This document shows positions 1-34,490 of a stretch of 34,530 bases of DNA, one piece after another. The DNA is from Chloroflexota bacterium (lineage in GTDB: Bacteria > Chloroflexota > Dehalococcoidia > Bin125): the NCBI GenBank assembly GCA_009838735.1, contig VXQZ01000039.1, positions 1 through 34,530 on the forward strand, given 5' to 3'. The notes below the pieces were generated by a model. It was given only the letters and a program-made list of their open reading frames with translations, was not told where the DNA came from and ran no database searches. The position numbers and the translations under genes are program-made. Every line of letters begins with the position of its first letter. Position 1 is the first letter of the stretch.

Positions 1-586
1 TGCGCCGTAGTCACTTGACCTGCGCTACGCCACGCGCATGCACTGCTGAACGAAAGCCAGTCCCCGAAGTAGTTGCGCACCTCGAGGCTCCCGTTCGTGC
101 CGCGCGCCGCGCTGTTCCAGCCCCCGATCGAGTCGAGGGCCAAGCGCAGTCATCTCTGCATGTTGTCAGAACCACACACGTACCTCCCGCGCCCGTCCGG
201 CTGCGCAAGCAACCAGTCGTCGCGAGAGTTTCCCGCAGCCCCCCTGATGTCGATGGAATTCGGCGCCATCGCCGATTTCCGGGGGGATGCTGTGGACGCA
301 TCTCAATCACTATGTCCCTTGTAAAGGCGCATCCCGAGGTCGGTCGCCCCGCGTCTGAGCGGGGACTGCTGAACAAGGGGTGCAAGAAGCAATCTTACCC
401 GTGCGCAGAATCGCCTGTCAACAAGCGGTTTACAGTCTCGAACGGCCGTTGGGGGACGACGGTGGGTGTATTCCGTCATCCTGCAACCGCCGCTCGGCCG
501 CCATTCACGGAGCGGATCGGCGCGACGGGGAGGGATCTTCGGCTGGCCGGGCGTAATCGCCCGTCCTGGACTGAAGATCGTGCGTT
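1..586. other. No confident gene; possible decayed coding trace on minus strand
   Basis: Several open frames cross this stretch on both strands, but none gives a convincing protein; most are rich in Arg, Ala, Pro and Thr, as expected for shadow frames in GC-rich DNA. One minus-strand frame reads plausibly like protein from about 260 down to 1, with the segments SIDIRGAAGNSRDDWLLAQP and GGWNSAARGTNGSLEVRNYF, but a TGA near 148-150 interrupts it. This may be the end of a degraded gene that continues off the left edge. I do not recognise the family. A minus-strand promoter-like sequence lies upstream at 392-421. Confidence that anything is translated here is low. Confidence 0.3.
392..421 (-). 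promoter_or_regulatory. Sigma-70-like promoter candidate pointing left
   Basis: On the minus strand a perfect -35 hexamer TTGACA (416-421) is followed after 18 bp by TAAGAT (392-397), a good -10. Transcription would start near 385 and run toward position 1, into the interrupted coding trace. This is a sequence match only. Confidence 0.35.
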
Positions 587-590
587 GGGA

Positions 591-670
591 GGTCTCGATT
601 TGTCCAGATTTGTCCAGATCTGTCTGGATTCGTCCAGACGTGTGTCAGTTTGTTCAGATTTCGTCCAGGC
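591..670. repeat. Array of 10-bp-period direct repeats (locus A)
   Basis: Successive 10-mers starting at 601 read TGTCCAGATT, TGTCCAGATC, TGTCTGGATT, CGTCCAGACG, TGTGTCAGTT, TGTTCAGATT; the 10-mer at 591 and the bases just after 660 are weaker matches. The period is exactly 10 bp over six to seven units. Locus B (17251-17310), upstream of murE, carries nearly identical units, and loci C and D carry related ones. On the minus strand the unit reads TCTGGACAAA. If orientation follows the other loci, the gene served would lie to the left on the minus strand, where only a decayed coding trace is visible. Confidence 0.85.
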
Positions 671-774
671 AAATCCACTTAATCGCGGAATTCCGAAGCT
701 CCGGGCAGGACGCTGAGCGACCGCGACGGTGGAGACCGGGACCCTGAGCGTCCGTCCGTGCTGATCGTATCCGG

Positions 775-3622: not shown

Positions 3623-3706
3623 TGAATGATAATCATTCACCATCCGCATGATTATCATTCACATCAAGAATGATTGTCATTCAGAATCTGCATGATTATC
3701 ATTCAC
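3623..3706. promoter_or_regulatory. Four palindromic operator-like sites phased at 22 bp
   Basis: Four copies of a palindrome built on ATGATnATCAT are centred at 3631, 3653, 3675 and 3697, exactly 22 bp apart. The first is the fully symmetric 17-mer TGAATGATAATCATTCA; copies 2 and 4 read ATGATTATCATTCAC and copy 3 reads ATGATTGTCATTCA. The core ATGATAATCAT is also the core of the classical Fur box. The array is AT-rich in GC-rich surroundings and lies between divergent genes, with the last copy ending a few bases before the ATPase start codon. It looks like a cooperative repressor site, possibly for a Fur-superfamily protein. Confidence 0.8.
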
Positions 3707-3709
3707 AGC

Positions 3710-6673: not shown

Positions 6674-9600
6674 ATGACCGTCTGCGGTCTCAGTGTCTGG
6701 CTGCCTCGAGCAGCCGGATTGACGCTGTGCGCCTGTTCGGTTCTCGTTTCCATACATGTCGGGTTAGCACAGGGCGCACCCGTCATTGATTCGAGCAGCG
6801 TCGACGGATCAACGCTGACCATCACCTTCTCAGAATCCCTGACCGCCTCCAGCAGCGCAGTGGCGTCGGAGTTCGCCGTCAAGCACGGCGAGGAATCCGT
6901 CTCCGTGTCTTCCGCCGAAGTCGGCGGCGCCGTCGTCACGCTGACCCTGACGGAAGCGGTCCCGGATGTCGATTGCAGCGACGAGAGCGTCAGCGTTGGC
7001 TTCTCGCCAGTGAGTTCCTCCCTCATCGGCGTCGGTGGGGGAACGATCGAGCAGTTCTCGGACCAGAGCGTCGCCAACCGTACCGACGCAGCGCCCCGGA
7101 TCGACTCGATCGAATCAGACGCCACTGGTCGATACATCTACGTCACCTTCTGCGAAGCGATCGCCGATCTCAGCTATCAGTGGTCCGACTTCTCCGCCTT
7201 CAAGGTCTCGGTGGATGGCGTCACGCGACCGGTCAATGATCTGTTGCGGCGCTCGGACTCGCCCAACCGGCTCGACATCCAGTTGAGCCGCAGTCAGGCG
7301 ATCAGCGAAGGCGACTCCGTGACGCTCGCCTACGATCAGCGCCGCGCCAACGCCGACTATCCGCTTGCCGACCTCGATCAGGGGAACCAACTGGTCGAGA
7401 GCTGGGCCGCGCGCTCGGTGACCAACAACGTTGACGGTCCGCCCACGCTGCAAACGGTCTCCGCGCTATACGAGGTCGTCACGTTGACCTTCAGCGAGCA
7501 ACTCGATGAGGACAGCGTCCCTGACGCGAGCGCCTTCACGATCGGCGGCGTTCAGAATGTTCCGGCCGTGGACGACGTGACCGTCTCGGGGCAGACCGTC
7601 ACCCTGACACTCGACGGCATCCTCCACAGCCGTGACTCGCCCACGTACACGCTGAGATATCTCGAGCCGAACCAGGCGCCGCTCAGGCAACTGGACGGCG
7701 CGCACAACGTCGCTGACGTCTTCTCGTTCCAGTTCAAGAGCAGCACGCCCGACCGGAAGCCGGCGGTCAGCGAAGCGGCGGTAGACGGTTCGGTCCTCAC
7801 AATCACGTTCGATCTGCCGCTCAAGGCGGTCGCCCCGGCCTCGGCGTTCACTGTCGCCGGCGAAGTCGAAATCACGGTGACAGCGGCGGCGTTCGAGGGC
7901 TCTGTGGTCACGCTGACGCTCTCGCCCGCGGTGACCGTCGATTCCTCGATCACGGTGTCCTACTCGGTGCCCGACTCACCGCCCAGGATTGAGGCGCGCA
8001 ACAACCGCGACGTGGACGCGTTTCGCAGTCAGCCCGTGACCAACAGGACGTCGGCGCCAGTTCCCGAGTTCAGCCGGGCCGAGACCTCGGCCGACGGGAC
8101 CAGACTCACCATCAACTTCACGCTCCCGCTCGACGCGACAGCCGAGGGAACGCCTGCAGCGTCTTCATTCTCGTTGTCGGGCACAACTGCCTCGGTCTCG
8201 TCGGTCACGGTCTCAGGCAGCGGCGTGACTCTTAGCCTGGCGCCCCTGGCTGATCTGGGCCAGGTGATTGTGGTGAGCTACACGCCGCCCGAAGAGGAAT
8301 CCGAACCAAGACTGCAGTCGCTCGCCCACCAGAAAATGGTCGGGGCATTCAGTGGGCAGCCGGTCACCAACTCCACCGACGGCAAGCCCCGTCCGCTCTC
8401 GGCGACGGTCGCTGCCGACCAGATCGAGATCACGTTTGATCGGTACTTGGACAGCCAGTCGGAGCCCGCGGCTTCCACGTTCGCGCTCGGCGGAGTCGCG
8501 GCGACGGTTTCCGATATCTCTATCGAGGGCAAGATCCTGACCCTCACTGTCGATCCAGAAGTTACGCATCGTGATTCGATCACGGTTGGCTACACACAAC
8601 CGGCCGAGACGCCGCTCAAGCGGGCAGGCAGTTCACTGCTGGTCGACTCGTTTGTGGAACTCGGAGCGACGAACAACACCGAAGATCCGACGCCGACATT
8701 TCGCTCGGCTTCGGTGGACGCCGCCGGGCGGACCTTGACGATTGTCATGTCCCATGCCTTGCTGGCAACCTCGGTCGGCACTCCCGCCGCATCGACATTC
8801 ACTCTCATCGGCAGCACCTCGGCCGTGGTTGAATCGGTCAAGATCAACGGATCCAGCATCGAGCTGACCCTGAGTCCACTAGCAGACCTCAATGAGACGG
8901 TCAGCGTCAGTTACCAACCGCCGAGCGACGCCACGGCCTCCGCCCTGCAGAGTCTCGATGGCGAGTGGAAGACGGCTGCCTGGTCGGTTCAGCCAGTGAC
9001 CAACCATGCCGACGGCGTGCCAAGACCGGTGAGCGGGAGAGCAAATGGACACACGGTCGTTCTGACGTTTGATCGCGACCTGGATGAGACCTCCGTCCCA
9101 CCCAAGGCAGATTTCAGCATCGCTCCAGGCGAGATCGTCGTGAGCGGAGTCGATATCGACGACGACACGGTGAACCTCACGCTGTCAACTGCGCTCCAGC
9201 ACGACGACGACGTCTCCGTGACGTACTCCGCGGCGGACGACGTCAAGTTGAAGCGCGACGGTCACGAGCTGGCGGTGTCAGCATTTGACGAAGTCGAAGT
9301 CACGAATGAGACGCCGGAGCCCCTGTTGCGCAGGATCGTCGGTAACCGGCAAGCGATCGTCGTGTCCTTCTCGAAGTCGTTAGACGTCAACTCCACGCCC
9401 GCAACCTCTGCCTTCTCTCTGGGGGCGGATCAGCCCGTCGTCAGCGAGGTGACCGTCAACGCCATGACGGTCGACCTCACCCTCGACCGAGCGCTGAGCG
9501 AAGGCGCGGCGTACACGTTGACCTACACGGCGCCCTCGGATTCTCCTTTGACAGCGTCCGACGCTTCGGAGATACCAGGCTTCTCAAAATCCGTGACCAA

Positions 9601-12600
9601 CCAGACTGATGTCGCTCCGCGGGCGATCTCTGCAACAGGTGACGGATCCACAGTGACGATCGGGTTCGATCAGTCGCTGGACGATGGCTCGAGCCTGACG
9701 GGGAGCGCATTGAGCATCTCGGCAGATCCGGGGGCAACTGCGACCGCCGTGTCGTACGTAGACGCCTCGATTGAGTTGACCCTGTCGCGGCCGCTGGCCG
9801 AGGACGAGTCAGCCTCAATTTCTTACATGCAGCCATCAACCGGGGGAATCGCCGACCCGTCCGGTAACCGGACGGAGTCCTTCGCGATCACCGTCGACAA
9901 TCGGACCGACACGGCGCCAGTACCAGTGTCGGGAACCGTCGAGGGCGACACGATCACGATCACGCTGGACCAGGCCCTGGCCGCCGCTTCCCTCTTCGAC
10001 CTGGATCTGGAGGACAACAGTGTCGTGCTCGACCACTTCACACTGACGGGATCCGACGCGGAAGACACCGACGTGATTCGAGTTGTGGTGTCCAACGGCG
10101 GACCGAACAACGTCGGCAAGATCGTGCTCACCTTATCCAGAGCGACTCGGGAAGGTGAAGCGCTGACGATCAGCTACTTCCCCAACTCCGGAAGCATCCG
10201 GATTCGGGATGACGATGCCGGAAAGAACCGGGCAGAGATCAACAGATATGCGCTAACCAATCTGAACGATGAACCACCGGTCGTCGAGTCGGCGAAGGTC
10301 GACGGAACGACCCTGGTTGTCACGTTCGATCAGGAACTCGATGCAGATTCAACACCTGACGTCTCGGCCTTTTCGCTGTCTGCCGACGGTCCGGCAATCT
10401 CCACGGCTTCGATCGCAGGAGCGGTACTGACGCTCACGCTGGCGACGACCGCTATTGAAGACGCCGAATACCAGTTGACGTACACACCGCCCGTGACCGA
10501 CCGGATCCGCGATCCAACGGGAAATGACGCTGTCGGCTTCTCCAGGGATGTCGACAATGCCACCGACTACGCGCCAACCCCAGTCTCGATCAAGACGAAT
10601 CAGGCAGGCACAGAGGTAACAGTCAGATTCGACCAGGCAGTGTTGATACCCGATACGTTCGAAAAGACGTCCTTCAGCTTCGACACAGACGAGCAGATTC
10701 ACTCCGTCATCGTGGATCCGAATGTTCGCGGGAGCGTGCAGCTGATTCTCATTCTCGAGAGCAATTCCGCCATTCGCGAAGGCGCCGTCATCAACCTGGA
10801 GTACGAGCCGCCAACATCTGGGGGTCTGCGGGACGACGACGCTGGAAACCTGCTGGAGTCGTTCACAGAGCCGGTCGATAACACCGTTGACGTGGCCCCG
10901 CTCCTGACGGAAGCGACGGTCAATCGCGACTCCGTATCGCTCAGGTTCGATCAACCGTTGGACACCGATCATGTCCCACCGGCGAATTGTGATCAACTGC
11001 CAATCCAGTCGGAACGGGCAGCATGCCATGAGGTTCCGGACATCGCGTGGTTTCGCATAACTCGAGACGCCACCGAGGAACTGGAAGTCGAGGAAGTGAA
11101 GGTGAGCGGCTCCGTCGTCGAGCTCGTGTTGCGCAACACAGTCTCCAGGAACGCCGTGATCACGCTGGCGTACGCTCGTGAGTCACTCGCGGATGGCACG
11201 TACAACCTGCGCGACACATCAATGCCGCACCATCCCGTCGCCTCATTCGGCCCGATTCAAGTCACCAATCTGACCGCGGCCGCTGCCCTCGAGGTGGCAT
11301 TTGATCGGCTCCGACCGGACAGGATCGAAGTGAGCTTCGACGGTCCGCTGTCGAAGACGGCAACAGACGGTCGGTCGCTGGTCACGGTCTCCGTCGACGA
11401 GACTCCCGTCGATGTCGAGTCGGTGAACACCGACGGTTCCAATCTGACGCTGAAGTTGAAACAGCCAGTGACCGAATGTGCCCCCGTTTCGCTGACATAC
11501 GTTCCCGGAGACGCGCCGCTGCTCGACATTGATGGACGTGAGGTAGTCGCGTTTGCATTCCAGGTCGCCAATCTGCTCAACCCGCAATGGGGTCTCAGCT
11601 GTCTGCAGTCCGATGTCGGGGCGCTGCAACTGACCTTCACCGATCTGTCGTTGCTGCAGAGACAAGGATTCGCGTGGCAACTCACGGTCAACGAGCAAGA
11701 CCGGGCATTTCGCACGGAGGAATCCGAGCGCGCGCTGCTCTTGAGGCCTGCGAAGTCGATCTGCGAAGGCGATATCACGATCGTCAGGTACTCCTCCGAT
11801 CTGTCGCCCGATCGACTTCAACTGGAGCGAACCATTCGCGTCGCGGCCCCGTGCGCGTTATCCGCCTCGGCAGACGGCGAGCGCTTGAGCATCACCTTCG
11901 ACGGTCAGTTGGACGGATCACCGGCCGATCTGTCGGGGTTCTCCATCAGCGGCCGGGCCTCCCTGGAGGCGGTCGAGGGCGTCGAGGAACAGGTACTGAA
12001 ACTCAGATTGACCCCGCCCGGCTTGCCCGAGGGCGACAAGGCCGAGATCTCATACGAGGGAGACAGTCTGATCAGAGGCGAGTTGACCGTCGGCCCGTTT
12101 GTGCTGCCGGTCCTCGACAGGACTGCCCCTCCCCAGCTCGAGTCGGCCTTCGCCCTGAACACCTCAGTGTTTCTGACGTTCGACCAGCCCTTGATTGAAC
12201 GGTCAGTGCCCGCCTCGCGCTTCATCCTCAGCGGGCCCGGCATCGACGCTCACGTGTCGGCCGTCAGCCTGACCGGCTCATCCGTCTACCTGGAACTGTC
12301 CGACCAACTGCCGGACGACCCCGACCTGTTCGGTCTCGTCTACCTGGCCGCGACGCGCGGCGGACTGGCCGGACTGACCGGATCCCGGGTCCCCGACTCC
12401 GTCTTCCTGGTCCGTAACTACACCGAAACGCCGCCAACCGTACTTTCCGCTGAGGCGAATTCCTCAGAAATCGAATTGACCTTCGACCAGGAGATTGAGC
12501 CGGATGGTGCACTGCCTGCCGATTTCACAGTTGTCGCAGGACACAGATCGATCTCGGTGGCATCCCTGAGTTGGTCGCCGGTGAGCGTGACGCTAACCCT

Positions 12601-13270
12601 GGATGAGCAAGTCACGTCACTCGATGCTGTCGTGTTGCGCTATGCGCCGGGTGAAGGCCGGAACATCCGGGATCGATCGCACCAGGAGCTGGAAGCGTTT
12701 GAGCTCCGCGCCCAGAATCTGACTTCCGCGCCGATCTCGATCGCCGAGCGAGTCGCCGAAGCCGAGCTCCGTGCTAGCAGCGGGACCACCACCTTCGCGC
12801 ATGAGCTGGTCCGCGGATTCGCCTCTCTTGAGGGAATACGGGTCAGCCTCGCCAGCGGAAACGGGTGGACCAGGGTCGCCCGAGCGGATCTGCAAGTCTC
12901 TGTCGATGCCTCGCGCATCGGAGCCGCATCGACGCGAATCGAAGTGGCCCCGATTGACCACCTCGAGACGATGCTGGAACAGCTCGAAACCGGTGCGTCA
13001 TCCTGCTGGAATCCTGATGCATCGGATCGATTCACAGCCTGGTGGATCGGCGCCAGCGATATTCATGGCGTGCCCGCTGAGGACCGAATCAGAGTCATGC
13101 TCACCGGAGTCTTCGACCCCTTTCATACCGCCAGAATCTGCGTCATGAACCTCGCTACCGGCGATTGGCGTGTGCATAGACCCGGCCGGCCAATGGTCGC
13201 GCCGGCGTTGGTATTGATACACGAGATTCCCGTGACGATTAGCCGCGATCAGCTGTCTCTCGCAGGGTGA
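6674..13270 (+). CDS. Giant secreted protein with about 19 SwmB-like Ig/beta-sandwich repeats
   Basis: This 2198-residue protein begins with a signal peptide (hydrophobic AAGLTLCACSVLVSI, likely cleavage near residues 33-36, around GLAQGAP). It continues as about 19 diverged repeats of 90-130 residues. Each repeat follows the plan xPxxxSAxVDGxxLTITFDxxLD, then SAFSL, then VxLTLxxAL, then VTYTPP, and ends in a linker such as VTNxTD. This matches the SwmB-type repeats seen in large surface and adhesion proteins. Repeats 14 to 17 are the most diverged. The last 180 or so residues form a different, non-repeated domain containing TAWWIGASDIHG and a possible disulfide pair. No LPxTG motif, S-layer anchor or terminal membrane helix is visible, so the mode of attachment is unclear. 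It is probably exported by Sec, with roles in adhesion or the cell envelope. Its 3' end overlaps birA by 32 bp, convergently. Confidence 0.88.
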   Translation: MTVCGLSVWLPRAAGLTLCACSVLVSIHVGLAQGAPVIDSSSVDGSTLTITFSESLTASSSAVASEFAVKHGEESVSVSSAEVGGAVVTLTLTEAVPDVDCSDESVSVGFSPVSSSLIGVGGGTIEQFSDQSVANRTDAAPRIDSIESDATGRYIYVTFCEAIADLSYQWSDFSAFKVSVDGVTRPVNDLLRRSDSPNRLDIQLSRSQAISEGDSVTLAYDQRRANADYPLADLDQGNQLVESWAARSVTNNVDGPPTLQTVSALYEVVTLTFSEQLDEDSVPDASAFTIGGVQNVPAVDDVTVSGQTVTLTLDGILHSRDSPTYTLRYLEPNQAPLRQLDGAHNVADVFSFQFKSSTPDRKPAVSEAAVDGSVLTITFDLPLKAVAPASAFTVAGEVEITVTAAAFEGSVVTLTLSPAVTVDSSITVSYSVPDSPPRIEARNNRDVDAFRSQPVTNRTSAPVPEFSRAETSADGTRLTINFTLPLDATAEGTPAASSFSLSGTTASVSSVTVSGSGVTLSLAPLADLGQVIVVSYTPPEEESEPRLQSLAHQKMVGAFSGQPVTNSTDGKPRPLSATVAADQIEITFDRYLDSQSEPAASTFALGGVAATVSDISIEGKILTLTVDPEVTHRDSITVGYTQPAETPLKRAGSSLLVDSFVELGATNNTEDPTPTFRSASVDAAGRTLTIVMSHALLATSVGTPAASTFTLIGSTSAVVESVKINGSSIELTLSPLADLNETVSVSYQPPSDATASALQSLDGEWKTAAWSVQPVTNHADGVPRPVSGRANGHTVVLTFDRDLDETSVPPKADFSIAPGEIVVSGVDIDDDTVNLTLSTALQHDDDVSVTYSAADDVKLKRDGHELAVSAFDEVEVTNETPEPLLRRIVGNRQAIVVSFSKSLDVNSTPATSAFSLGADQPVVSEVTVNAMTVDLTLDRALSEGAAYTLTYTAPSDSPLTASDASEIPGFSKSVTNQTDVAPRAISATGDGSTVTIGFDQSLDDGSSLTGSALSISADPGATATAVSYVDASIELTLSRPLAEDESASISYMQPSTGGIADPSGNRTESFAITVDNRTDTAPVPVSGTVEGDTITITLDQALAAASLFDLDLEDNSVVLDHFTLTGSDAEDTDVIRVVVSNGGPNNVGKIVLTLSRATREGEALTISYFPNSGSIRIRDDDAGKNRAEINRYALTNLNDEPPVVESAKVDGTTLVVTFDQELDADSTPDVSAFSLSADGPAISTASIAGAVLTLTLATTAIEDAEYQLTYTPPVTDRIRDPTGNDAVGFSRDVDNATDYAPTPVSIKTNQAGTEVTVRFDQAVLIPDTFEKTSFSFDTDEQIHSVIVDPNVRGSVQLILILESNSAIREGAVINLEYEPPTSGGLRDDDAGNLLESFTEPVDNTVDVAPLLTEATVNRDSVSLRFDQPLDTDHVPPANCDQLPIQSERAACHEVPDIAWFRITRDATEELEVEEVKVSGSVVELVLRNTVSRNAVITLAYARESLADGTYNLRDTSMPHHPVASFGPIQVTNLTAAAALEVAFDRLRPDRIEVSFDGPLSKTATDGRSLVTVSVDETPVDVESVNTDGSNLTLKLKQPVTECAPVSLTYVPGDAPLLDIDGREVVAFAFQVANLLNPQWGLSCLQSDVGALQLTFTDLSLLQRQGFAWQLTVNEQDRAFRTEESERALLLRPAKSICEGDITIVRYSSDLSPDRLQLERTIRVAAPCALSASADGERLSITFDGQLDGSPADLSGFSISGRASLEAVEGVEEQVLKLRLTPPGLPEGDKAEISYEGDSLIRGELTVGPFVLPVLDRTAPPQLESAFALNTSVFLTFDQPLIERSVPASRFILSGPGIDAHVSAVSLTGSSVYLELSDQLPDDPDLFGLVYLAATRGGLAGLTGSRVPDSVFLVRNYTETPPTVLSAEANSSEIELTFDQEIEPDGALPADFTVVAGHRSISVASLSWSPVSVTLTLDEQVTSLDAVVLRYAPGEGRNIRDRSHQELEAFELRAQNLTSAPISIAERVAEAELRASSGTTTFAHELVRGFASLEGIRVSLASGNGWTRVARADLQVSVDASRIGAASTRIEVAPIDHLETMLEQLETGASSCWNPDASDRFTAWWIGASDIHGVPAEDRIRVMLTGVFDPFHTARICVMNLATGDWRVHRPGRPMVAPALVLIHEIPVTISRDQLSLAG

Positions 13271-15683: not shown

Positions 15684-17246
15684 TTACTGAGATAGGCGCG
15701 TAGTGGGCAGACTGTTCAAGAGTTCTCGCGCCACTTCGCGATCATCCCAGGGCTCGACCCTGTCGGCATAGATCAGCGTTGGCTCGGCGCCTTTGCCGGC
15801 GACCAGGACAAGGTCGTCGGGCTGCGCCATGGAGACCGCACGGCGGATCGCCTCGCGGCGGTCGGGCTGCACGTCAAACGACTCACCGCCGGCCTCGACG
15901 AGGTGACCGGCGATCTCGTCAACCATCTCGACGGGATCCTCCGAGCGCGGATTCTCGTTGGTAATCACGGTGTGGTCGGCGTACTGCGCTGCGGCCGCAG
16001 CCATGCTTGACTTGCGGATCGGATCGCGCTCGCCGGCGACGCCGAAGACGAGGATCAGACGGCCTGCGACGTGAGGCTTGAGTGTCTGCAAAGCGAGATC
16101 GAGTGCGGGTCCGGTGGCGGCCGCATCGACGATCACGGTGAACGCCTGACCTTCCTCGATTGATTCCATTCGTCCGGGGACCGGTCGCAGTTCGTTCAGG
16201 GCAGCCTGCATCGGCACGGGACCGACGCCGAGGCTCCAGGCGGCGCCGGCGGCCAGAGCCGCGTTGCCAAGGTTGTAGTCGCCCGGCATCGGCAGTCGTG
16301 CCCCCAGCGCTCCGGCGGGCGTGACGACTCGGACATCGGATCCTCGGGCGTCCCGCGCGCTGGCGATGACGCTGACGTCGGCGACGGTGTCGGGCGTTGC
16401 GGCGACGATGGTCGTCGGGCCATTGTGAGCGCCGGTGATGGTCGGGTGATGCTCGTCCTCGGCACCGACGACCGCCCGGCTTCCGGGATGGTCATCGAGC
16501 GACTCGAAGAGCTTGAGTTTGGCGGCGAGGTATCGATCTCGGGTCTGGTGGAAGTCGAGGTGATCGTCGGAGAGTCCGGTGAAGACGGCGACCCGGGTGT
16601 TGATCTGGTCGGCTCGGTGGAGCTCGAGGGCGTGGGAACTGACCTCGAGGATCGCGTGGGTGTCGCCGGCCGCGACCATCTCGGCGAGCTTGGCCTGAAT
16701 CACGTCGGCTTCCGGTGTGGTCTCTCCAGTCTCATTGCGGCTCCTCTGGCCTCCGGCATGGAACTCCACGCCATTGAGTAGGCCGGTCGGGAGGCCCGCA
16801 GCCGTGAGTATGGCATGAATCAGGTAGGAGGTCGTGGTCTTGCCGTCGGTTCCGGTGACTCCGACAACGCTGAGCTTGCGAGCCGGGTAGTCGTGGTAGG
16901 CGGCGGCGATCTCCGGCAGCGCCGCGCGAGTGTCGTCGACGCTGACAACGGTGAGCTGCGGATGAGCGTCGGCGATTGGCTGCCAGAATTGACGGCGATC
17001 GTCCTGAACAACAAGCGCCGCCGCCCCATTCGCAATGGCAGATTCGAGGTAACGATGGCCGTCGACGGTGAATCCCGGAATGGCGACAAACAGGTCGCCA
17101 GGGTTGAGCTGGCGGGAATCCTGACGGACTCCGCTGACCGTGCCCGAGGGATCACCCTGGACCAACTGGTGCGGAATGGTCGAGAGAATCTGCGTGATCT
17201 GGACAGAATTGGCAGGTTTTGGCGTGTATTGCGGTGTTTGAGGCAT
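15684..17246 (-). CDS. murE: MurE-like UDP-MurNAc-tripeptide ligase with divergent active-site motifs
   Basis: This 520-residue Mur ligase family member would add the third amino acid (m-DAP, Lys or Orn) to UDP-MurNAc-L-Ala-D-Glu. Conserved parts are the N-terminal UDP-binding domain (SGVRQDSRQLNPGDLFVAIP), the ATP loop GTDGKTTT (132-139), TTPEADVIQ, EVSSHALELHR, DDHLDFH, the AK pair for lysine carbamylation (AAKLKLF), PGDYNLGN and PGRMESI. Three signature sites differ from the usual MurE: VDYAHTPDAL is VDAAATGPAL (373-382), DNPR is ENPR (431-434) and GKGHE is GKGAE (484-488). The start at 17246 gives a normal N-terminus; the frame is open upstream only because it runs into rnpB. No ribosome-binding site is present, because a decamer array abuts the start. 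Function as MurE is likely but not assured. Confidence 0.82.
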   Translation of the reverse strand: MPQTPQYTPKPANSVQITQILSTIPHQLVQGDPSGTVSGVRQDSRQLNPGDLFVAIPGFTVDGHRYLESAIANGAAALVVQDDRRQFWQPIADAHPQLTVVSVDDTRAALPEIAAAYHDYPARKLSVVGVTGTDGKTTTSYLIHAILTAAGLPTGLLNGVEFHAGGQRSRNETGETTPEADVIQAKLAEMVAAGDTHAILEVSSHALELHRADQINTRVAVFTGLSDDHLDFHQTRDRYLAAKLKLFESLDDHPGSRAVVGAEDEHHPTITGAHNGPTTIVAATPDTVADVSVIASARDARGSDVRVVTPAGALGARLPMPGDYNLGNAALAAGAAWSLGVGPVPMQAALNELRPVPGRMESIEEGQAFTVIVDAAATGPALDLALQTLKPHVAGRLILVFGVAGERDPIRKSSMAAAAAQYADHTVITNENPRSEDPVEMVDEIAGHLVEAGGESFDVQPDRREAIRRAVSMAQPDDLVLVAGKGAEPTLIYADRVEPWDDREVARELLNSLPTTRLSQ

Positions 17247-17250
17247 TCTG

Positions 17251-17310
17251 GATGTCAGATTTGTCCAGATTTGTCCAGATTCGTCCAGACTGGTCTCGAT
17301 TTCGTCATGA
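17251..17310. repeat. Array of 10-bp-period direct repeats upstream of murE (locus B)
   Basis: Consecutive 10-mers from 17251 read GATGTCAGAT, TTGTCCAGAT, TTGTCCAGAT, TCGTCCAGAC, TGGTCTCGAT, with a weaker sixth. On the murE coding strand the unit is TCTGGACAAA. The array fills the gap between the rnpB 3' end and the murE start codon, stopping 4 nt from it. It matches locus A (591-670) almost unit for unit. Confidence 0.85.
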
Positions 17311-17356
17311 TTCTTCTCACAATTTCCTGCGTTTGTCCAACAGATTCTGGTTGAAT

Positions 17357-18985: not shown

Positions 18986-20455
18986 CTAGGCCTTGAGCTG
19001 GGTGGTGACGGAGTTGTCGAAGACGATGACCCGGTCGACGAGATGTTCAATCAGGTCTCTCTGCTGGGGGAAGTTGAGGGATTCCCAATCTTCTCGGACG
19101 CGTTGCAGTCGCTGGTCGCGGCGGCGGCGGCGATCGGCTTCTCTGTCCTGCGCCTGCGCCCGGCCCTTGATCGAGGCGAGGTCGGCGCTGGCCGATTCCC
19201 ATTCGGCGATGATCTCGGCGCCCGCCTCATGCAGCATCGACGGCGGTGGATCGCCGGCGGCGGCATCTTCAAGCAGCTGTGCGAGCTTGCGGTCGATCGC
19301 TCGCAGGCGAGCTTCCCCGGAGGCGAGCGCGACCGCCGTCTCGGCGGCGAGCGCCGTGTCGTCCTTGCCGATGTTGAGCACGGCGATCTCACCGCCCTGG
19401 CGTTCGCCGCGGATGTGCGCGAGTACCTCCGCTTCCAGTTCGTCGGCGCGCCGCGTGTGATAGCCGCCGACCGACTGGTTGGTTCGCGCCTCGGACTGGT
19501 AATAGCGGTAGGTCGCCGCGGCGGTCTCGCCGCTGGCCTTGCGCCAATTCTGGCGCCGGGTGACGCCGATCATGCGGGTCTGATCCTCGCCGCACCAGAC
19601 CAGACCGGCCAGCAAGAAGTCGGACGGGTGACTGACGCCGGTCGCGGTGCGACGCTCGGCCATCTGCCTGGCGACCGTTTCGAAGTCTGGTTCGGAGACG
19701 ATCGCTTCGTGGTTGTGGGGCACGCTGACACCGAGCTTGTCGTAGCGACCGACGTAGACCGGGTTGCGCAACAAGTCGCGGATCGAGACCATGCTCCAGT
19801 TGCGGCCGCGGCGGGTCTGGTAGCCATCCTGGTTGAGTCGCTGCGCGATCCGCCTGATGCCGAGACCATCATGCAGGCAGAGGCCGAAAATCCGCCGCAC
19901 GACGGCAGCTTCCTCCTCATCGACTTCATAGCGTCCGTCGCCGCCGACCCTGTAGCCGTACGGGGGACGACCGATCGCCTGACCCAGCCGGGCTCGCTCC
20001 TGGAGCCGGGCGCGGCGGCGTTCGCTGTCGGTGTCCGGGTCGCTATGCAGTCGCCACAGGTCGATCAGCGAGGCCTCGTCGATCGGACCGTCCGTGAGCG
20101 AGATCAGTTGGACGCCCCGCGCTCGCAGTTGCAGCACCGTCCGGACCGCCTGCGTGGCGTCGTGCCCGAGGTTGGCAAAGCTCTGAATGACCACGAAGGT
20201 GAAGCCGCGCGCCTCCTCGCTGAGGTGCCGCAACAACTGGATCAGGCCGGAGCGTTCGCGACCGGGAGACGTGTCCGCATCGAGAAACGTCGCGGTCGGC
20301 TCGTAGCCATGACGTTGGCAGTACTTGAGGAATTCCGCGTTCTGCTCGACCAACGAGGGAAGCGAATCCAGCCTGCCCACCGCCGTCGACTCGCCGTCCT
20401 GGTCGTATCTGGTCAGGCGGTCATGAGGTTGACTGAGATAGCCGATGGCGCGCAC
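18986..20455 (-). CDS. Large serine recombinase homologue with a degenerate catalytic site
   Basis: This 489-residue protein has the layout of large serine recombinases: an N-terminal resolvase-like domain (1-140), the Recombinase domain (GRPPYGYRV at 162-170, YEVDEEEAAVVRRIF, IAQRLNQDG, WSMVSIRDLLRNPVYVGR at 220-237), a zinc-ribbon-like region (DFLLAGLVWCG, YRYYQSEART), then a coiled coil (about 350-470). The catalytic parts are missing: the YxRxS start is YLSQP (6-10), which puts Pro in place of the nucleophilic Ser, and DRLxR has become SFANLGHD (92-99). The ribbon keeps one Cys of the usual four. It is probably unable to cut DNA and may be domesticated as a DNA-binding protein. The start is GTG at 20455. 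Downstream on the same strand are the antitoxin and toxin genes. Confidence 0.85.
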   Translation of the reverse strand: MRAIGYLSQPHDRLTRYDQDGESTAVGRLDSLPSLVEQNAEFLKYCQRHGYEPTATFLDADTSPGRERSGLIQLLRHLSEEARGFTFVVIQSFANLGHDATQAVRTVLQLRARGVQLISLTDGPIDEASLIDLWRLHSDPDTDSERRRARLQERARLGQAIGRPPYGYRVGGDGRYEVDEEEAAVVRRIFGLCLHDGLGIRRIAQRLNQDGYQTRRGRNWSMVSIRDLLRNPVYVGRYDKLGVSVPHNHEAIVSEPDFETVARQMAERRTATGVSHPSDFLLAGLVWCGEDQTRMIGVTRRQNWRKASGETAAATYRYYQSEARTNQSVGGYHTRRADELEAEVLAHIRGERQGGEIAVLNIGKDDTALAAETAVALASGEARLRAIDRKLAQLLEDAAAGDPPPSMLHEAGAEIIAEWESASADLASIKGRAQAQDREADRRRRRDQRLQRVREDWESLNFPQQRDLIEHLVDRVIVFDNSVTTQLKA

Positions 20456-25817: not shown

Positions 25818-25899
25818 CAAAATTGAACCACCCCAATCTCACGATCTCCCGCAAAACACTGGGAATCCGTCCCTGTGGGCCAGCTGGAAAAAAATTCCC
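25818..25899 (+). repeat. 80-bp conserved block shared with the uvrB upstream region (copy 1)
   Basis: Starting with CAAAATTGA and ending with AAAAAAATTCC, this block aligns without gaps to the reverse complement of 34269-34348. The longest shared stretch is CACGATCTCC, one variable base, then GCAAAACACTGG. Both copies point toward the following gene (udg here, uvrB there). The aligned frames also read alike (HPNLTISRKTL versus [11 protein letters not shown]), so a translated origin cannot be fully excluded. Confidence 0.75.
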
Positions 25900-25950: not shown

Positions 25951-26050
25951 CCGAACACCACCGAACGGATCCGAACAAGATCGAACGTTTCTGCCGAATC
26001 GGCGTCCCAATCCAACCGAACAGAGCCGAACACCGCCGAACGCTGCGAAC
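25951..26050. repeat. GAAC decamer array upstream of udg (locus C)
   Basis: GAAC recurs exactly every 10 bp at 25953, 25963, 25973 and 25983. A second group follows with a shifted phase (CCGAA at 26016, 26026 and 26036, then GCGAA at 26045). On the minus strand the unit is GTTCGG plus four variable bases, matching the GTTCGGATTT units of locus D. The array ends 75 bp before the udg start codon. Confidence 0.8.
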
Positions 26051-26125: not shown

Positions 26126-26764
26126 GTGGACCCTCAGCGACTCGAACTGCTCAACGCGAAAATCGCCGGCTGCACCGCCTGCCGCTTGCACGAGGGCCGG
26201 ACTCAGACGGTTCCCGGTAATGGCGACCCCAACGCCGAGCTGATGTTCATCGGCGAAGCGCCCGGACAGAACGAGGACCAACAAGGACTGCCCTTCGTCG
26301 GGCGCGCCGGTCAATTGTTGGATGAGCTGCTGGGCGAGATCGGATTTACCCGCTCGGATGTGTTCGTCGCCAACGTGCTCAAGTGCCGCCCACCCGGCAA
26401 CCGTGATCCACAGCCCGACGAGATTGGCTGCTGCGAGGTCTACCTGCGTGAGCAGATCGAGGGCATCCGGCCCAAGCTGATCGTCCTCCTGGGCCTGTTC
26501 GCAACGCAGTATTTCCTGCCCGATGCGAAGATGGGCGAGACGCGCGGTCAGCCGCATCAGGCCGGTCCTTGGCTCATCCTGCCCGTCTATCACCCGGCCG
26601 CCGCGCTGAGGAACTCAAACCTGATGTCGACGATACGGGAAGACTTCGCCATTATTCCCCCCCTGCTCGCAAAGGCAGAGCGCCCGGAAGTGCAGCGGCT
26701 GCAGATTGGCCACCAACACGCGCACGCCGCCGAGGACGATGATTCGCAGCGTTCGCTGCTCTAG
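26126..26764 (+). CDS. udg: Uracil-DNA glycosylase, family 4 (iron-sulfur)
   Basis: This 212-residue enzyme removes uracil from DNA to start base excision repair. Family-4 marks are the active-site loop GEAPGQNE (43-50), four cysteines for the 4Fe-4S cluster (Cys16, Cys19, Cys87 and Cys102 or 103) and the HPAAAL motif (His156). The opening [25 protein letters not shown] is typical. The C-terminal 35 or so residues are a His/Glu/Asp-rich tail of no known function. The start is GTG at 26126 without a visible ribosome-binding site. The gene lies downstream of decamer array C, and RNase J follows 26 bp later. Confidence 0.96.
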
Positions 26765-32050: not shown

Positions 32051-34192
<2,142 letters not shown>

Positions 34193-34268: not shown

Positions 34269-34348
34269 GGAAATTTTTTCTGGAAAGCCTTTCGGCGACA
34301 TTCTCCAGTGTTTTGCAGGAGATCGTGGCGGGAGGGTGATCAATTTTG
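34269..34348 (-). repeat. 80-bp conserved block upstream of uvrB (copy 2)
   Basis: Read on the minus strand, it begins CAAAATTGA and ends AAAAAATTTCC. It matches 25818-25899 upstream of udg without gaps, best in CACGATCTCC and GCAAAACACTGG. It lies about 77 bp before the uvrB start, in the same orientation relative to the gene as copy 1. Confidence 0.75.
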
Positions 34349-34390
34349 ATCAATTCTGAGCGGGTTTTGTGGGTCGAATTCATGGTGTTG

Positions 34391-34490
34391 GCGTGCGGTC
34401 TTGTTCGGATTTGTTCGATTCTGGACGGATTTGGACGGCTGGGTGCGGGCGTGGACGGCTGTGGAGGGGTGGGTTCGGGGGCGTCAGATC
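34391..34490. repeat. 10-bp-period repeat array upstream of uvrB (locus D)
   Basis: From 34401 successive 10-mers read TTGTTCGGAT, TTGTTCGATT, CTGGACGGAT, TTGGACGGCT, GGGTGCGGGC, GTGGACGGCT, GTGGAGGGGT, GGGTTCGGGG, keeping register over eight to nine units. It contains both the GTTC-type unit of locus C and a GGAC-type variant, so it links loci A/B with locus C. It lies 200 bp upstream of uvrB, beyond the 80-bp block. Confidence 0.8.

Follow-up and report, generated by a model that had tools for sequence, protein, structure and literature searches.

According to the available part of the published account (PMC5859096), BldC of Streptomyces binds head to tail to a variable number of direct repeats, spaced by about one DNA turn, in promoter regions. 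RdfS, an oligomeric helix-turn-helix (HTH) protein, is described in the accessible portion of its report as covering about 10 bp of DNA per molecule with low sequence specificity (PMC11963761), and in these partial texts the two proteins provide precedents for one HTH protein per approximately one DNA turn on direct repeats. The small terminase of SPP1/SF6 has HTH motifs about one DNA turn apart, for which nucleosome-like wrapping of DNA was proposed in the available excerpt (PMC4737164).

The elements described here resemble each of these systems in part. They are head-to-tail repeats with a period of 10 bp, putatively bound by the HTH proteins described below. As in the BldC account (PMC5859096, available part), a small HTH-containing protein would be paired with direct repeats of about one DNA turn. 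BldC is described there as a MerR-like winged HTH protein with 9-bp sites, whereas the present family is homeodomain-like (Pfam models HTH_23 in 18 of 19 proteins and HTH_38 in 16 of 19), and no MerR model was among the best 25 of the 51 Pfam families matched by the 19 proteins. Unlike BldC as it appears in that text, the family is present in multiple copies and has the array within its coding sequence. The proposed stoichiometry of about 10 bp per HTH molecule would match that of RdfS (PMC11963761, accessible portion), although RdfS is there a winged HTH protein associated with an integrase and an integrative element, neither of which was seen with the family here. In the SPP1/SF6 pac region, as far as the available excerpt goes (PMC4737164), the recognition region of an HTH protein likewise holds direct repeats and overlaps the protein's own gene, but no phage context was found here by two scans of viral contigs, and the strict 10-bp period and the scattered solo copies are further differences.

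A literature search, whose coverage excluded most subscription journals, returned no description of these elements. REP/RAYT systems and MITEs are characterised by numerous short copies in intergenic DNA that are related to a longer, gene-bearing copy. The solo elements here, meaning the intergenic copies, are likewise short, numerous and related to a gene-bearing copy. In contrast to REP/RAYT systems and MITEs, the gene here encodes an HTH protein and the orientation preference is strong. No transposase, terminal inverted repeat or target duplication was found for the elements, with one filled and empty pair of sites, diverged in its flanks, read by eye.

The window, by which we mean the entire 34,530-nt stretch analysed, is contig 54 of the source genome (G000; 3.15 Mb, 56 contigs). 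Genes were called with our own hexamer script, which recovered the Pfam-supported genes of the window. The closest named relatives of its UvrB come from Dehalococcoidia MAGs (65-67% identity), so that the genome probably belongs to this class, and rnpB was the sole Rfam match. The window also holds an open reading frame of 2198 aa (6674-13270), a large serine recombinase gene close to rnpB (18986-20455) and, between divergent genes, a tandem 22/44-bp repeat with ATGATAATCATTCA cores (3624-3707), which we take to resemble iron-regulator boxes.

The best 60-base lag-10 identity at each locus was compared with 1000 dinucleotide shuffles of the same locus. It reached 36/60 at 592 for locus A (null maximum 33), 37/60 at 17256 for locus B (null maximum 29) and 38/60 at 34396 for locus D (null maximum 33), each with p<=0.001; locus C, before udg, was weak (30/60 at 26014; null maximum 33, p<=0.01). 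Locus D was also the top lag-10 site of the entire window (null maximum 34 in 100 whole-window shuffles). The four 10-bp arrays reported in an earlier note on this DNA are thus confirmed, all above dinucleotide shuffles. The "perfect register" it described at locus D holds for the spacing of the nine decamers only, because their letters differ. The common orientation relative to murE, udg and uvrB was borne out, the GTCC/GTTC strand being antisense to all three genes. Locus A lies downstream of an aldo/keto reductase gene, and its other neighbour is off the contig. The features of the window are collected in Table 1.

Table 1 Array elements of the 34,530-nt window, their modules and the genes downstream of them
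Feature	Position	Strand	Remark
Locus A, A-type array	592..661	-	units GTCCAGATTT on +, AAATCTGGAC in element sense on -
A-type element extent at locus A	518..701	-	from the 41-copy position profile
5' promoter-like motif of the locus A element	753..769	-	3 mismatches to TAYNATCAGAACATANG
Locus B, A-type array, rnpB-murE gap	17253..17302	-	predicted murE start codon inside the element's downstream wing
A-type element extent at locus B	17179..17353	-	cut at rnpB end
Hairpin module, locus C	25843..25867	+	4 mismatches to GATCTCCAGTAAAACACTGGAGATC; here 5' of the array
Locus C, weak G-type array, GAAC each 10 bp	25951..26041	+	upstream of udg; missed by the array caller
Locus D, G-type array, nine decamers	34393..34482	-	upstream of uvrB; units GTTCGGATTT / GGACGGATTT on +
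Second 10-bp repeat, other unit TGATCAATTC	34337..34359	-	between array D and hairpin
Hairpin module, locus D	34300..34324	-	between array and uvrB; 4 mismatches to consensus
murE, downstream of locus B	15684..17246	-	
udg (UDG superfamily), downstream of locus C	26126..26764	+	
uvrB, downstream of locus D	32051..34192	-	

The four arrays belong to a genome-wide family. In the source genome GTCCAGATTTGTCCAGATT (up to 3 mismatches) had 103 matches against 2 for the reversed pattern, and GTTCGGATTTGTTCGGATT had 32 against 0. Around those of these matches that were listed, 55 stretches were fetched and arrays were called in them with our own script. Nine of the 69 called sites with an A- or G-type unit were left out (five as antisense readings and four inadvertently, namely L165, L181, one array of L187, and L191), which gave at least 60 arrays, 41 of A-type and 19 of G-type; a looser G-type pattern yields further sites. 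Among 33 arrays in co-directional gaps, 29 were in sense to the downstream gene (A-type 19/23, G-type 10/10), a proportion that became 28/32 when independent gaps were counted and 31/35 when the left-out sites and locus C were restored. The remaining arrays lay in divergent gaps (12), in convergent gaps (5), in predicted genes (5) and at contig edges (5). Promoter control is unlikely for the five arrays between convergent genes. Lag-10 windows of at least 30/60 made up 4.75% of intergenic but 0.013% of coding windows in the source genome; in syntenic blocks of 11 genomes they exceeded 1% of intergenic windows in 8, the percentage of the sister species G011 being inflated by a poly-C stretch, and reached at most 0.3% of coding windows, with none in three genomes. 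These results support an authentic repeat family, located mainly in intergenic DNA, whose period is fixed and whose orientation is biased. A simple tandem repeat produced by slippage only, which would have no preference for place or orientation, was rejected on the same figures.

The arrays are the cores of larger conserved elements. In an ungapped alignment on the first good unit, conservation of the 41 A-type copies extended from about -80 to +97, where it dropped sharply, and their wings kept a 10- to 11-bp phase. The G-type elements additionally carry a hairpin and a second repeat of a different unit, which is CCTGAAAAAA in several sister genomes at the position occupied by TGATCAATTC in the window. 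Sequences near the hairpin consensus, GATCTCCAGTAAAACACTGGAGATC, occurred 16 times at up to 5 mismatches in the fetched stretches of the source genome, and 13 of these were in sense to the next gene. The idealised hairpin folds better than shuffles (z -9.5), unlike the copy found in the window (z -0.66); arrays B and D, as DNA, also fold no better than shuffles (z 1.17 and -0.46). A terminator or RNA structure was rejected, the hairpin having no T-run 3' of it on either strand. Another dispersed palindromic repeat (CCCTCTCCC...GGGAGAGGG...) was noticed in intergenic gaps of sister genomes (L234, L239, L246 and others).

In many elements the 5' end bears a promoter-like motif, TAYNATCAGAACATANG or AGAACnCATGTnCgnnTAYRATc. 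TAYNATCAGAACATANG had 45 matches genome-wide against 15 for its reverse. Among its 18 matches at up to 2 mismatches, 15 were 5' of an array, two of these before HTH genes, and the remaining three preceded another small ORF family. Besides the HTH genes, a second multi-copy family, of small ORFs (MPNPYHFRAxIDRLWR...), shares the motif (loci L356, L360, L365 and L371 of the source genome); it had 2-20 matches in 11 of 41 genomes, namely the 10 genomes of the genus with HTH genes and G004, and neither Pfam nor PHROGs gave a match for it.

Matches to the promoter-like motif led to ORFs that encode HTH proteins. A search of 41 genomes returned 50 matches in 11 genomes, comprising 10 of the 15 genomes of the genus and G017, from another genus of the same taxonomic family; 30 loci were retrieved, of which 29 were readable. 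In 27 of 29 HTH genes, compared with 2 of 366 control genes, a lag-10 array of at least 28/50 followed the HTH domain by no more than 500 bp, and one of at least 27/50 lay within 500 bp of the domain at 28 of the 29 loci. The array was inside the open frame in 27 of the 29 genes. When 294 genomes of the class were searched with a profile (with up to 13 candidates scored in each), long matches appeared in the genus and G017 only; G018 had one partial match and six others matched in the HTH alone. The Pfam matches of the proteins are to generic HTH models only, and the best match to a solved structure (1.6e-5) is confined to the HTH stretch. The HTH domains evolve as coding sequence, with 8/4/20 substitutions by codon position in the pair L379-L380, and no transposase was seen in the HTH ORFs. 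The class-C protein of L396 (G014) ends in a cysteine motif, CPCNSGKKRKHC, which is SEC-C-like. We conclude that the HTH proteins represent an undescribed, lineage-specific, multi-copy gene family that is the likely source of the arrays.

A profile built from 38 A-type intergenic copies, with the three HTH-linked copies excluded, matched 11 of 12 distinct class-A HTH genes over hmm positions of about 10-174 (E 1e-28 to 4e-11). Its value for the twelfth gene (L382) was 0.044 and for class-B genes 0.0012 at best, and its strong matches elsewhere in control DNA were known solos. With such matches in HTH genes and at least 60 arrays in the source genome, the solos have the makeup of a MITE-like set of gene-less multi-copy elements. 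A point against this derivation is that the element wings without the array gave weak matches to class-A genes (best E 0.014 and 0.034). Protein classes A, B and C paired with GGAC, GAAC and CTGAA units, respectively, in 24 of 25 scorable genes (permutation p 5e-5; 34 genes, 9 of them not scorable, with genes below 60 bits, including those of G017, excluded), the sole mismatch being the class-B gene L386 with GGAC. This agreement may reflect common descent rather than recognition, since array and HTH domain share one ORF, and the excluded G017 genes run counter to it, being closest to the class-C query yet carrying GAAC-type arrays. The class-C loci L452 and L396 carry a hairpin that departs little from the consensus, by 6 and 4 mismatches respectively, and the uvrB element therefore seems to combine modules of classes B and C.

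The occurrence of arrays across genomes largely followed that of the HTH genes. The 10 genomes of the genus with HTH genes had 149, 30, 114, 86, 80, 8, 6, 119, 31 and 59 matches to the A- and G-type patterns together, and the five without had 0, 0, 6, 1 and 0 (Mann-Whitney p 0.003, a test that ignores relatedness). G017 combined HTH genes bearing in-gene arrays with 9 G-pattern matches, and the other four genomes of the family had none. Exceptions were G007, which has the uvrB element and 6 G-pattern matches yet no HTH gene, and G009 and G010, in which HTH genes go with as few as 8 and 6 pattern matches. Genomes of other families had 0-2 matches, and the 1-2 A-pattern matches in six HTH-less ones among them are likewise against the association.

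On balance, we consider it somewhat probable that the arrays are head-to-tail platforms for the HTH proteins and that the intergenic copies are gene-less derivatives of the HTH gene family. The second part, the origin of the intergenic elements, is well supported by sequence comparison: the solos are homologous, over nearly their full length, to the 3' module of class-A genes; the 5' promoter-like motif is common to many solos and some HTH genes; and solos have been gained or lost at fixed intergenic sites while period and orientation were maintained. The first part is suggested by the same comparisons, in that the HTH proteins may line up on copies before unrelated genes. Cooperative protein binding, which the earlier note had raised for these arrays, gains plausibility from the occurrence of the same arrays in an HTH gene family. 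The four arrays in reversed orientation in co-directional gaps stand against this reading, as does conservation between sister species, where the arrays (identity 0.85) are barely better conserved than the downstream genes (0.83).

Gain and loss were apparent among sister genomes. The element before uvrB was present in 8 of the 15 genomes of the genus; four others had a very short gap, two had other DNA and in one the site was not located. The tatC-udg gap held a G-type element in G000, G011 and G014 and an A-type element in G006, measured 25 bp in G001, G002 and G005, and had no array in G004, G009, G010 and G013. At 10 element sites compared between G000 and G011, two were clear cases of presence and absence, one was shared and seven gave no decision. 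The two clear pairs measured 394 versus 28 bp and 1922 versus 116 bp, the latter with extra genes; inspection of the first by eye (L153 and L444) revealed no clear duplication, in flanks that had diverged. Of 37 G011 stretches, 29 matched an array locus of G000. In 27 aligned pairs one G011 site (L154) had no array, seven arrays differed by 10 or 20 bp with no other length change inside an array, and one 31-bp change lay just outside an array. Such whole-unit changes are as expected from unit-wise slippage or unequal exchange, and the earlier argument that conserved spacing speaks against slippage was therefore too strong.

These observations bear on the possibility that the solos are neutral relics of a mobile HTH gene, gene-less copies in decay whose period was only inherited and renewed by slippage and whose orientation records tolerated insertion and not use. 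Length changes in exact multiples of 10 bp and the gain and loss of elements are in keeping with it. In addition, the units within an array are alike and drift jointly between species (at uvrB, GTTCGG in G000 and GATCGG in G006), and substitutions in solo ORFs have no codon-position bias (66/58/68, p=0.65; 12 loci, G000 versus G011). The strong orientation bias argues against neutrality, as does the greater identity of arrays than of their upstream flanks (0.73) between G000 and G011. The rnpB-murE element of G000 agrees with that of G002 in 176 of 176 aligned columns, with differences in columns nearby in murE and rnpB; this may reflect strong constraint, although recent transfer could account for it as well. 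We regard neutral relics as unlikely, while granting them real weight.

Alternatively, the arrays may serve as sites at which a general protein, for example gyrase or a nucleoid protein, wraps DNA, with the HTH genes containing one by chance. The element length of about 175 bp, the sharp 3' edge, the presence in these elements of another repeat with a different unit (CCTGAAAAAA) and a period of 10 to 11 bp, and the alternation of AT and GC runs along one helical face would suit such a protein. A housekeeping binder leaves unexplained, however, why arrays track the HTH family across genomes and why nearly all HTH genes read contain one, and we give this explanation little credence. Packaging or partition sites, with an HTH protein resembling a terminase small subunit or a centromere-binding protein and the in-gene array as pac or centromere, are very doubtful. 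The pac region of the SPP1 type has direct repeats that overlap the start of the small-terminase gene, according to the available excerpt (PMC4737164), and Terminase_5 was among the weak Pfam matches of 6 of 19 members; those weak matches span the HTH only, the HTH genes of nine loci stand alone among predicted, unannotated host genes, and neither of two single-protein scans found a relative in viral contigs.

A reading of the solos as genes for small proteins, in which the array is only a coding repeat (SGQIWTNLDK-like peptides), was rejected on codon positions and is barely credible. Stop-free frames traverse the arrays, and 12 solos have an ATG, at about -64 to -95, that is kept in both G000 and G011, but these same 12 are the loci that lack codon-position bias, unlike the HTH domains, the 10-bp length changes break the frame, and the strand is T-poor (0.153), which makes open frames common. 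Control by LexA was also rejected, since a repair theme was absent among the downstream genes: when 30 further genes downstream of arrays were scanned with Pfam, two had no match and one matched the DinB_2 superfamily, which is not the polymerase, so that udg and uvrB remain the exceptions and the SOS link raised earlier found no support. Operators of this type, with the GAAC-N4-GTNC motif and the GAAC repeats as LexA sites, are hardly tenable, even with uvrB and udg downstream of arrays and a GAACnCATGTnCnnnTAyRAT motif that several elements carry at the 5' end, as GAAC is absent from A-type arrays.

If the arrays are platforms derived from the HTH gene family, the following picture can be proposed. 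Genes of the multi-copy family encode a small HTH protein and have, 3' of the HTH domain, a 10-bp direct-repeat array within the coding sequence, and the dispersed solos would descend from this 3' array module. HTH monomers would bind head to tail, one per 10-bp unit and on one face of the helix, and would then polymerise along the DNA or wrap it. With less certainty, the in-gene array may serve autocontrol, and the solos may bring downstream host genes under control of the HTH proteins or of a promoter supplied by the element itself. That the arrays regulate the downstream genes is a guess from their place and orientation. We tentatively entertain a new class of regulatory element, in which an HTH gene with its own in-gene multimeric platform has seeded gene-less copies of promoter and platform before dozens of host genes, giving a young genus-level network of HTH paralogues with their own unit types, wired by mobile DNA.

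If the HTH proteins do bind the arrays, they would provide a natural example of a transcription network whose spread relied on copying a binding site from within a gene. Its three classes of paralogous proteins and its three unit codes could then be tested against one another, and the arrays would offer sequence-coded, helix-phased platforms of many lengths for studying the polymerisation of HTH proteins on DNA. Such a case would sit in a bacterial lineage whose regulation is little known.
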